Below are positions 2,349 to 61,406 of a stretch of 64,000 nt of DNA, piece by piece (position 1 is the stretch's first letter; the number at the start of each line of letters is the position of its first letter). The notes under the pieces were generated by a model. The model worked only from the letters and a program-made list of their open reading frames with translations, ran no database searches and was not told where the DNA came from. The stretch is from assembly GCA_951812335.1 (NCBI GenBank), contig OX638293.1, forward strand, positions 1,596,731-1,660,730, in the 5' to 3' direction. Made by a program: the position numbers and the translations under genes. The stretch comes from Rhodothermales bacterium. GTDB taxonomy: Bacteria > Bacteroidota > Rhodothermia > Rhodothermales > VXPQ01.

Positions 2349-2602
2349 GGATACTCTGCTTAAGTCCGCGAAGCTCAGAGGTTGAGCAGGGTGCGCCGGC
2401 AAGGAATGACGAAGCAGTGTGAAAGGCCCCGCATAATGAGGAATGACGCGGCCAGCGCACCCCTCGCAGCCTCCCGAAGGGCGCGTCACGTCCGCGACGC
2501 CCCGAATCCGCAGTGTTTCCCGCTGATTTCAACGATGGAATCATGACGTCCTTTATGCACGAAAGTAAAGCGTCGGGCGAAGCGATTTTGATCAGAGTAT
2601 CC
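2349..2602 (+). repeat. GGATACTCTGAT-TIR element, copy 1 (complete)
   Basis: A 254-bp intergenic element. It begins with GGATACTCTGCTTAAG and ends with the inverted copy TTGATCAGAGTATCC. Inside are a GC-rich hairpin (arms near 2380-2402 and 2450-2475) and two GGAATGACG-type direct repeats. It is about as long as copy 3 and clearly related in sequence. It sits between the TPR gene at 2678 and the start codon of eno at 2329, both on the minus strand. Confidence 0.9.
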
Positions 2603-2677
2603 CATACTACGAACGGGCCGCAAGTGCAGGCCGCTACATGGGACGGAAATAGTGACAGGGGAGCCGAATGCGAGGCG

Positions 2678-4030
2678 TTACGGGGCACGCACGGTGGTCG
2701 TTTCGTTGATCCATGCGTAACAGCCGTAATCCACTCGGTAGGGTTGCCCTGGCTCCCAGTTATTGAAAAAGAGAGCTTCCTGATCCGGAAAACTGCGTCG
2801 GTAGGTGGCGATTTTTTGATTCGCCTGCGCGGATATACTCGAATCCTTTGCCCGGGCCTGCTGATAATAATCTACTGCCAGCCAGTAAACGGCCCGGTCT
2901 TCCCGCTCGAACGTGCCGCAATTCGATACGGCGGAGGCGTACAGGTCGCCGATGGCGATATATGCCTGACCGAAGTTTGCATCTACCTGAATGGCCTGAC
3001 GGAAAAAGGATCGCGCCTGGGACACGGCGCCGTCCTGTTGCCGGGCGATTCCCAAATTGTAGAGAATGTCCCGCTTGATTGTGGCGTCTGTATCGTCGCC
3101 GAGCAGCGCAAGAGCCTCCTCGTAGTAGGATATTGCCCGGGTGGCATTCCCGTCCTGGAGATGAAGTTGTCCGAGGCGGCGGTACGTGAGGGGCGACGGA
3201 TCCATTTCGAGCAGGCGATCGCCGAGTTCTGCGGCTTCGTCGCGGTAGCCCAGTTCGAGATAGATGTCGAAGAGCTCCGCGGCTACCTCTATGTTATCCG
3301 GGGTGTTTTCCAGTCGTGTCTGGAGAAATTCAAGGCGTTCTTCCGGGGTGCTGAACAGGGCGTTACGTATCTCCGTGAGGTACGCAGCGACATCTGCATT
3401 GTCGGGATAGCATGCCTCGGCTTCGTCCGTCAGGTTAATGGCGCGCTGCTTGTCGCCGTTTCGGGCGGCGTCGTCGATGACGATGCGTACATAGTATGCA
3501 TCGATATTACACCCGATCATGGTGTAAACCTCGTTGTATACCGAGGCGAACGCAGGGGCATCGCTGCTCAGCGATTGATGGTGTTCCTGCAGGAAGCGTC
3601 CCTTTCGGAGTTTCCATTGGGCTTCATCGAACTCAACGGCGCCTTCCTGCATACGGGCGATGGATCGATCGAACCATACATAGGCGGAATCGAGATATGT
3701 TTGCCTGGCCTCTTCGCTTTCCGAGTCCTCGGCCAGTGCTGTGTAGAGTTCGACGGTCCGCTCGAAGTTTCGGTCGTCATTCCGCGGGTAATCGGGCGCA
3801 TTACGGAGGATCCAATGGAGATTCGGCAGGGCACTCAGATAATTCCTGTTTTTGAAATCCTCGTAGTAGAGGCTGTAGTGCACGCCCTTGTCCTGGTCGC
3901 TTACTGCGTTTGCCTCGTCGGATTGAGCGAGCACGGGCTGCACCGGCCCGGTGGCGCATGCGGCTGCAAGCAATACGGATGCGATGAGGCCCCGGCCACA
4001 AAGGGAGGTATGCTTTATAATGCGCCGCAT
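2678..4030 (-). CDS. Exported tetratricopeptide-repeat protein
   Basis: A 450-residue protein with an N-terminal signal peptide (hydrophobic stretch about residues 13-35, probable cleavage after VLAQ). At least four TPR-type helix pairs are visible in the C-terminal half, for example around GYRDEAAELGDRLLEMDP, LGQLHLQDGNATRAISYYEEA and LGIARQQDGAVSQARSFFRQA. TPR arrays mediate protein contacts. An exported one beside an outer-membrane barrel suggests a periplasmic or outer-membrane scaffold, but no specific function can be assigned. A cysteine in AAAC near residue 25 could be read as a weak lipobox; cleavage after AQ is preferred. It is followed 67 bp downstream of the next gene upstream on the same strand. 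Confidence 0.75.
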   Translation of the reverse strand: MRRIIKHTSLCGRGLIASVLLAAACATGPVQPVLAQSDEANAVSDQDKGVHYSLYYEDFKNRNYLSALPNLHWILRNAPDYPRNDDRNFERTVELYTALAEDSESEEARQTYLDSAYVWFDRSIARMQEGAVEFDEAQWKLRKGRFLQEHHQSLSSDAPAFASVYNEVYTMIGCNIDAYYVRIVIDDAARNGDKQRAINLTDEAEACYPDNADVAAYLTEIRNALFSTPEERLEFLQTRLENTPDNIEVAAELFDIYLELGYRDEAAELGDRLLEMDPSPLTYRRLGQLHLQDGNATRAISYYEEALALLGDDTDATIKRDILYNLGIARQQDGAVSQARSFFRQAIQVDANFGQAYIAIGDLYASAVSNCGTFEREDRAVYWLAVDYYQQARAKDSSISAQANQKIATYRRSFPDQEALFFNNWEPGQPYRVDYGCYAWINETTTVRAP

Positions 4031-4097
4031 GATAAAAAATCGTCTTGTGAAGAGGGATCGCCTGCCGATCAGGTTACACCTGTTACACCCTGCGCCG

Positions 4098-60588: not shown

Positions 60589-60599
60589 AGGGTACTGCT

Positions 60600-61058
60600 T
60601 TATGCTCCGATATCTCTCTGGCGCTTGTATTCTTTCATGGCGGTGACAGCCGCTTCATCGACGAGGTTATTGAGCTCATTGTCGGCGTGCCCTTTTACCT
60701 TGATCCATGTTATGCGATGGCGGGCGCTTTCCTGAAGCAACGATTCCCACAAATCCTTGTTCTCGACAGGTTTTTTTCCTGACGTTTTCCAGCCGTTGCG
60801 TTGCCAGACGTCGAGCCAGCGCCGGTTGAATGCATTCGCGAGATAGGCGCTATCGGTGTGGAGTTTTACCTGACATGGCTTCTTTAGATGGCGGAGCGCC
60901 TCCAGGGCTGCCGTGAGCTCCATCCGGTTGTTTGTCGTATGGGGTGCGCCGCCGGTCAGTTGTTTGCGGTGTAATTTGTACATAAGAAGGGCCGCCCAGC
61001 CGCCGGGGCCGGGGTTGCCGCTGCAGGCGCCGTCCGTATAGATGGTTATGTTTTGCAC
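60600..61058 (-). CDS. rnhA: Ribonuclease HI
   Basis: Degrades RNA in RNA-DNA hybrids (R-loops, Okazaki primers). 152 residues. Catalytic residues Asp9 (YTDGACSGNPGPGGWA), Glu47 (NRMELTAALEAL), Asp69 (HTDSAYL) and Asp134 (NNLVDEAA), plus the flexible-loop His124 (KVKGHADN). The N-terminus is short and starts directly at the first strand. It is transcribed away from obgE, whose start lies 372 bp upstream across repeat copy 5. Confidence 0.96.
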   Translation of the reverse strand: MQNITIYTDGACSGNPGPGGWAALLMYKLHRKQLTGGAPHTTNNRMELTAALEALRHLKKPCQVKLHTDSAYLANAFNRRWLDVWQRNGWKTSGKKPVENKDLWESLLQESARHRITWIKVKGHADNELNNLVDEAAVTAMKEYKRQRDIGA

Positions 61059-61140
61059 GATCGGGTGTCTTGAAGAGGCGATGTTGACAGAACCGTAGCC
61101 GCATGGATCCGGTACGAAAGCGTCGGCAGGCGAAGTGTCA

Positions 61141-61406
61141 GGATACTCTGATCAAAACCACTTCGCTCAGCACTTCACGTACGTACAGGTTTTAATCAGA
61201 GTATCCATGTCATGATTCCATCGTTGAAATTAGCAGAAAACACTGCGGTTCCAGGCATCGCGGCCGTGAAGTGCCCTTCGGGAGGCTGCGAGGGGCACGC
61301 TGGCCGTGTCATTCCTCATTGTGTGGAGCCTGCCACATTGCTTCGTCATTACTTGCCAGCGCACCCCTCTCAGCCTCTGATCTTTGCGGACTTAATCAGA
61401 GTATCC
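61141..61406 (-). repeat. GGATACTCTGAT-TIR element, copy 5 (with a nested inner end)
   Basis: 266 bp in reverse orientation between rnhA and obgE; it ends 24 bp before the obgE ATG. Besides its outer ends it carries a third family end (TTTTAATCAGAGTATCC at 61190-61206). Positions 61141-61206 thus form a 66-bp unit with ends GGATACTCTGATCAAAACC and GGTTTTAATCAGAGTATCC, which are inverted copies of each other in 18 of 19 positions. The remainder follows the canonical internal order. Confidence 0.9.

Follow-up and report, generated by a model that had tools for sequence, protein, structure and literature searches.

Repeat copies in the 64-kb window

The window analyzed here is a 64-kb stretch of a Rhodothermales genome (positions 1596731–1660730 of contig C1 in G000, a 2,686,407-bp single-contig genome), and it carries an interspersed family of ~254-bp repeats bounded by terminal inverted repeats (TIRs). 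The family had been proposed from the letters of the window as a set of miniature inverted-repeat transposable elements (MITEs) or of repetitive extragenic palindrome (REP)-like sequences, and its existence is confirmed: allowing 2 mismatches or fewer, the 12-bp end GGATACTCTGAT is found 17 times, where 3.3 occurrences are expected and the maximum in 100 shuffles is 8, and BLAST with copy 1 as query found the other four copies at 80.5–91.3% identity. The parts are given below, with strands following the orientation of the insertion sequence (IS) described further on, TAAG end first, and with the state of the matching site in a sister species of the same genus (G004). ORF denotes a listed open reading frame.

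2349–2602, plus strand: copy 1, full size, 254 bp; the G004 site is without the element
12716–12940, minus strand: copy 2, degraded, with the left TIR missing or rearranged and the right TIR degenerate (GGATACTCCAT); the aligned flanks lie 14 bp apart in G004
15123–15376, plus strand: copy 3, full size, 254 bp; the G004 site is without the element
41452–41463, minus strand: solo end, which includes the stop codon of ORF 41453–43468
44873–45118, minus strand: copy 4, 246 bp, flanked by TTTA and TTTA; covers the last 37 bp of ORF 45082–46236 (minus strand); the G004 site is without the element but has a 60-bp unaligned stretch
50226–50261, plus strand: end fragment of the CAAAACC type, 36 bp, with a second solo end after it; G004 has this fragment in decayed form
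50265–50276, plus strand: that second solo end, which begins 39 bp past the start of the fragment at 50226
60387–60402, plus strand: solo end, preceded by TATA
61141–61406, minus strand: copy 5, 266 bp; the G004 site is without the element
61190–61206, minus strand: extra 17-bp piece within copy 5 that ends in an exact third TIR (61195–61206), as judged by eye against copy 4

Most of the original prediction for these parts stands, with corrections. Copies 1 and 3 are each exactly 254 bp and are 91% identical to one another, copy 3 being the nearest (94.5%) to a consensus built from the window's four full copies. Five near-complete copies with inverted ends were claimed and four of them are so built, copy 2 being damaged at both ends. 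The claim of three or more solo ends was raised to four by the one at 50265, and the solo end placed at 41451 belongs at 41452–41463. Every copy was said to lie between genes, which is nearly the case, the exceptions being copy 4 and the solo end that holds a stop codon. Finally, a loop with two GGAATGACG repeats was described for the copies, and this fails for copy 3, whose second repeat reads GGAATAACG.

Copy number and host range

Copies elsewhere in the genome, the absence of which would speak against a mobile family, are plentiful. Exact GGATACTCTGAT occurs 260 times in G000 (125 + 135) and its reversed control 0 times. The six genomes of the genus carry 260 (G000), 219, 102, 91, 78 and 77 exact copies, and the other 108 of the order's 114 genomes carry 0–2 each. 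With the 254-bp copy as query, 6 of 99 genomes matched, all of them of the genus and G000 among them. Repeated matches, among the matches listed, were to the Rhodothermales metagenome-assembled genomes OX638295.1, JAJDWX, JAJECT and JANQSQ. Carriage outside Rhodothermales was considered and dismissed, as single-match records among the matches listed were taken as chance, and so were 70 viral matches to a 16-base pattern, which came one to a virus. The family is confined to one Rhodothermales genus.

In 1.124 Mb of G000 we counted 100 elements, 50 of them full-size, amounting to 17,550 bp or 1.6% of the DNA; one G000 tally scored 40 of 269 candidates and is a lower bound. Four of the six genus genomes are drafts. 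Among the matches listed, many contigs of G001 and G002 start ~124–141 bases from an exact end; assembly seemingly broke inside the repeat, and the draft counts are therefore floors. Draft assemblies of this genus may thus under-count such elements.

Structure of the element

The consensus, built from 77 of 91 full-size TIR pairs (14 were dropped for length or score), is 254 bp long with a mean copy identity of 89%. Of the 91 distinct full-size pairs, whose ends have no more than 2 mismatches by construction of the set, 64 measure 250–259 bp. Oriented like the IS, the element has the left end GGATACTCTGATTAAGTCCGC and, read inwards, the right end GGATACTCTGATCAAAACC; each consists of GGATACTCTGAT and a less perfect continuation of ~8 bp. 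As had been stated, there is no transposase inside: 254 bp hold no coding capacity for one, with the short frames given no family search, and the 30 copies examined are 242–262 bp long and differ by single-base indels.

The long internal hairpin of the original prediction was borne out by folding and pairing analysis. There are two internal hairpins, so that the consensus folds as a single three-way foldback with an energy of −132 kcal/mol. Folded as RNA, the two strands of copy 3 gave z scores of −6.0 and −4.6, and its plus strand folded as DNA gave −3.9; none of 200 shuffles folded as well. Across the first hairpin (34 pairs), 94.4% of cells pair against a shuffled mean of 91.8%, and two-sided changes number 73, where 200 shuffles average 17 and reach 36 at most; these shuffles take no account of relatedness. 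By wobble counts (406 and 310) neither strand is clearly favoured.

Shorter forms are also present. Sixteen TIR pairs lie no more than 130 bp apart; six of them form 37-bp elements and five form 63/64-bp elements, with a few recurring junctions, and further copies persist as single ends. Exact 4-bp duplications flank 4 of these 16 pairs, and one 63-bp copy faces a G004 site without it. Some short forms appear mobile, and the 63-bp form can probably still be moved; the short forms and solo ends probably arose by deletion between short matching words. Separately, a head-to-tail pair of full copies, separated by 5 bp, occurs at G000:C1:206728-207239 (junction GAGTATTTTAAGGATG).

Empty sites and target duplication

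G000 and G004 are single-contig chromosomes that are colinear over long stretches at ~83–94% identity. Elements were located by BLAST with the 77-copy consensus in 1.124 Mb of G000 and 0.94 Mb of G004. Conserved G004 flanks were found for 34 of the 50 full G000 copies; the other 16 were without synteny, in part because the comparison covers only 0.94 Mb of G004. A related genome with copies at every orthologous site would have spoken against mobility, a check that was set beforehand, and instead 23 of the 34 syntenic copies face an element-free gap of no more than 100 bp. The other 11 were labelled shared. Five of them face a fragment, which may partly be chance, and six face a full copy, four at 99.2–100% identity, one at 85.7% and one that is a different element. 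In the reverse direction, 14 full copies in 640 kb of G004 gave 7 element-free G000 sites, 4 shared copies, 1 doubtful case and 2 without synteny; the label shared was also given to copy B2 234424, on the strength of a 57-bp fragment, but this copy does not count among the four.

The flanks show a 4-bp target duplication. When junctions were aligned at 14 G000 sites, 11 gave a better alignment after removal of 4 bp and 3 without any removal, and clear duplications were TTAA (twice), CTAT and TTTA, with TGAA for one G004 copy. Exact 4-bp matches between flanks occur in 19 of 91 full-size pairs, against a mean of 5.0 and a maximum of 13 in 2000 shuffles, and per-position agreement is 48–62 of 91 at length 4 compared with 15–40 at lengths 2–3 and 5–9. 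Among the 182 ends the commonest flanking words are TTAA (33) and TATA (18), followed by TACA, TTTA and TAAA (10 each).

At one locus (G000:C1:1743893; G004:C1:1229927) each species has an element inserted at the identical base within the TTAA of an old solo end, yet the two elements are distinct and point in opposite directions. The flanks agree at 150/150 and 147/150 positions. Family ends are therefore themselves targets. Inversion in place was considered and set aside: inverting the G004 copy lifts the match from 266/405 to 318/383, which still leaves a different subfamily, and we read the locus as two independent insertions or a replacement.

A candidate donor of the transposase

The original prediction called for a search for an element with the same ends and a transposase, and this yielded three broken IS5-family loci in G004 and a decayed remnant in G000. 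Searching the six genus genomes with the PF01609 profile produced matches in four of them. At three G004 loci (L205, L209 and L212) an exact ATCAGAGTATCC end lies ~150–200 bp downstream of the transposase match, preceded in all three by CCGGATTG, and one of them also has an exact left end. All three transposase genes are broken or incomplete. Model NF033581 matched a 140-aa donor piece with an E value of 1.3e-39 and 136.3 bits, just below the 140-bit cut-off, and the donor locus with one stop read through at 143.5 bits, above it; donor pieces also match PF01609 and PF05598. By these profile matches the donor transposase is assigned to the IS5 family. The ends of IS5 itself also begin with GG. 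Within the genus, NF033581 matches were found only in G004, and these are broken. The G000 remnant (L252) is a 29-residue match (E 3.4e-4) with a decayed end and a 3′ region recognised by eye.

Relatives of the donor occur outside the genus. In G076, the left ends of two loci (L258 and L260) read GGATAGTCTGATTAAGTC and their right ends GGACGGTCTGATCAATCC and GGAAGGTCTGATCAATCC; both loci share the end asymmetry of the MITEs, with TAAG at the left end and CAA at the right. G029 encodes an uninterrupted 328-aa transposase relative that is 72% identical over the 140-aa query.

Other candidates were rejected. The PF01609 gene L206 in G000 (C1:636280-636654) is surrounded by an inverted repeat (TAGGGCGTGTTAACA...) that is another sequence, and the G002 matches L211 and L213, both close to the end of a contig, show no such end within 3 mismatches, except for one 3-mismatch place in L213. 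The L206 gene is of the DDE_Tnp_1 type, its repeat reads TAGGGCGTGTTAACAC, and a near-same repeat surrounds a gene at L210 in G002. A further observation comes from L251 (G001:C10:13343-13483), where a piece of transposase C-terminus is fused directly to MITE-like sequence.

Genomic setting

Gene calls for this comparison were greedy longest ORFs, plainly wrong in places. Of the 28 full copies in 624 kb of G000, 19 show no overlap with a called ORF, and 5% of random 254-bp stretches overlap ORFs by 20% or less. Only 6 of 14 full copies in 640 kb of G004 overlap by 20% or less. We take the overlaps above 20% (9 of 28 G000 copies and 8 of 14 G004 copies) for probable start-codon extensions and spurious ORFs. 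Full copies between convergent genes number 0 of 28 in G000, against 49 of 285 gaps, and 2 of 14 in G004, against 62 of 299 gaps, and the damaged copy 2 of the window also sits between convergent ORFs. Because the ORF calls are crude and copy 2 is so placed, there is no more than a hint that sites upstream of genes are preferred, and a regulatory effect of the copies is a possible role.

Conservation of shared copies

Four full copies common to G000 and G004 are nearly unchanged, with 0/253, 2/254, 2/254 and 2/255 differences (6/1016, 0.6%). Their 200-bp flanks, gaps left out, are 83.1, 94.5, 94.5, 92.0, 90.5, 99.5, 93.0 and 94.5% identical, so that seven of the eight differ by ~5–17%. Where the edge is readable, mismatches resume 4–56 bp from the shared element. 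High identity approximately matches the extent of the element at three of the four loci, and at G000:C1:1714942 it extends for ~200 bp on one side. One more shared full copy, the fifth, shows 14% divergence (210/245 plus gaps). Of 20 places counted as shared, five have both flanks at least 96.5% identical, from which exchange between the species seems to happen. The strong conservation of the four copies, the oddest finding here, has these counter-examples and comes from only four loci; it poses a small, testable puzzle.

Origin and movement of the family

We interpret the repeats as a gene-less MITE family of one genus that was probably mobilised in trans by an IS5-family transposase sharing its ends, a reading to which we give a probability of about 90%. 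The MITE half of the original prediction is supported by copy number, by empty sites, by the 4-bp duplications and by an IS that has identical 12-bp ends next to a transposase gene. The IS transposase is very probably the mover. As no intact transposase with these ends was found, we infer the enzyme from the shared ends. In the proposed mechanism, the DDE transposase of the same-ended IS would bind the MITE ends and insert the element at a 4-bp TTAA- or TATA-like site, duplicating those 4 bp. Old copies would then lose their middles by internal deletion, giving the 37-bp and 63/64-bp elements and the solo ends, and new copies may land in a TTAA inside older ends. In the species of the window the family now seems largely dormant.

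Several observations weigh against this reading. Because gaps with as many as 100 unaligned bases were counted as empty, some of the empty sites are not clean. The exact 4-bp duplication is kept in only 19 of the 91 copies, 2-bp exact matches (17) also exceed the shuffle maximum (16), probably via TATA flanks, and the flank preference is not exactly the YTAR reported for IS5. PF01609, protein and NF033581 searches of the six genus genomes, four of them drafts, revealed no intact transposase with these ends, and the MITE interior has no resemblance to the IS beyond the ends that was seen by eye or by BLAST. Lastly, conservation of the four shared copies exceeds that of their flanks, and a purely neutral parasite would not be predicted to show this.

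The other half of the original prediction was that these are REP/BIME-like or IS200/IS605-type palindromes, moved single-stranded by a Y1 enzyme (RAYT or TnpA) without target duplication. The repeats are indeed short, mostly intergenic and strongly foldable, and come with solo ends, as such palindromes would. We nevertheless rejected this explanation, and regard it as very improbable, because the Y1 domain PF01797 was found in 0 of 6 genus genomes (a few percent of the genome missing) while 5 of 14 controls were positive; moreover, the element has a 4-bp target duplication, and its ends agree with those of an IS5-family DDE element. The conservation of the shared copies suggests another possibility, that the family was once mobile and that some or most full copies are now selected host sequences, acting as a structured RNA or as a transcription or mRNA-stability signal. 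Besides the contrast between the four copies and their flanks, the two-sided changes in the 34-pair hairpin exceed those of shuffles that ignore relatedness, the consensus and copy 3 RNA folds are strong, and, as a weak point given the crude ORF calls, full G000 copies are absent between convergent genes. We consider this unlikely, since 23 of 34 sites are empty in the sister species and one shared full copy is 14% different, as a neutral copy would be. The shared places with both flanks at least 96.5% identical point to exchange rather than selection, two G004 copies and the damaged copy 2 do lie between convergent ORFs, and the wobble counts show no clear strand preference.

A somewhat better, though still doubtful, account of the same conservation is that shared copies were homogenised between the species by element-centred recombination, for example after hairpin breakage, which is compatible with an ordinary MITE. 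It would explain why high identity is nearly coextensive with the element at three of four loci, but only four loci are involved, tracts of 254 bp and tens of bases are unusually short, and the fifth shared full copy was left 14% different. Speculatively, the element could itself drive its exchange between lineages: breakage of the 254-bp foldback, with repair from homologous DNA, would let a dead, transposase-less MITE homogenise and spread at occupied sites; alternatively, the copies may have gained a function. Simple introgression as the sole cause is weakened by the mismatches that resume 4–56 bp away. Short-tract introgression, like element-centred recombination or selection on a few copies, may explain the shared-copy conservation.

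Comparison with known elements

Gene-less elements of this kind are known from Porphyromonas gingivalis, where BrickBuilt, MITE239, MITE464 and MITE700 are described as IS5-family MITEs, several of which share ends with the full-length IS5-family elements ISPg1/3/4/9 (PMC4596501). As in the family studied here, they are reported to have no transposase remnant, to have TIRs (nearly) identical to those of the genome's IS5-family elements, and to occur as full and partial copies; filled and empty sites were compared with P. gulae, as was done here between sister species (PMC4596501). They differ in TIR sequence, in copy number (~10–20 per genome, against 50 full copies in 1.12 Mb here), in target duplications that vary in length rather than being 4 bp, and in having full-length donors where only broken ones were found here (PMC4596501). 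IS5 of E. coli, which is reported to duplicate 4 bp at the motif YTAR, agrees in transposase family and duplication length, but the target here is looser (TTAA, TATA, TACA, TTTA, TAAA) and the element is gene-less (PMC10359306).

A review describes many MITE families with truncated and partial copies (PMC10969869). Chunjie of Geobacter uraniireducens and QMITE1/2 of Coxiella, compared by description only, are likewise ~178–400 bp long with many truncated or partial copies, and Chunjie is also chiefly intergenic, whereas QMITE2 has direct repeats of 7–9 bp according to a figure legend, against 4 bp here (PMC10969869).

At gathering score, Rfam 15 searched over the window gave no family on any copy, a contrast with the Correia and ERIC elements, and matched only two tRNAs and an S-adenosylmethionine (SAM) riboswitch. 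The ends of Correia and ERIC also differ from those of this family. Like the present repeats, both are high-copy, short and located between genes, and they can enter and alter transcripts (PMC10969869).

A single search for Rhodothermales with "miniature inverted-repeat" found no paper in the library used, and searching the literature with the 12-mer gave, among the matches listed, only animal or cell studies. Since IS5-family MITEs are well known and no paper on Rhodothermales MITEs was found, the family appears new in sequence and ordinary in kind. It adds a dense, genus-confined, putatively IS5-type MITE family in Rhodothermales, and its natural series, from 254-bp copies through 63/64-bp and 37-bp forms to solo ends and broken donor IS, may show how non-autonomous elements decay and what minimal sequence movement takes.

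Other features of the window

The SAM riboswitch lies at 38647–38800 of the window, over the 5′ part of the listed ORF 38662–40314. The DNA behind it resembles a gene annotated as O-acetylhomoserine aminocarboxypropyltransferase on a Nostoc plasmid.

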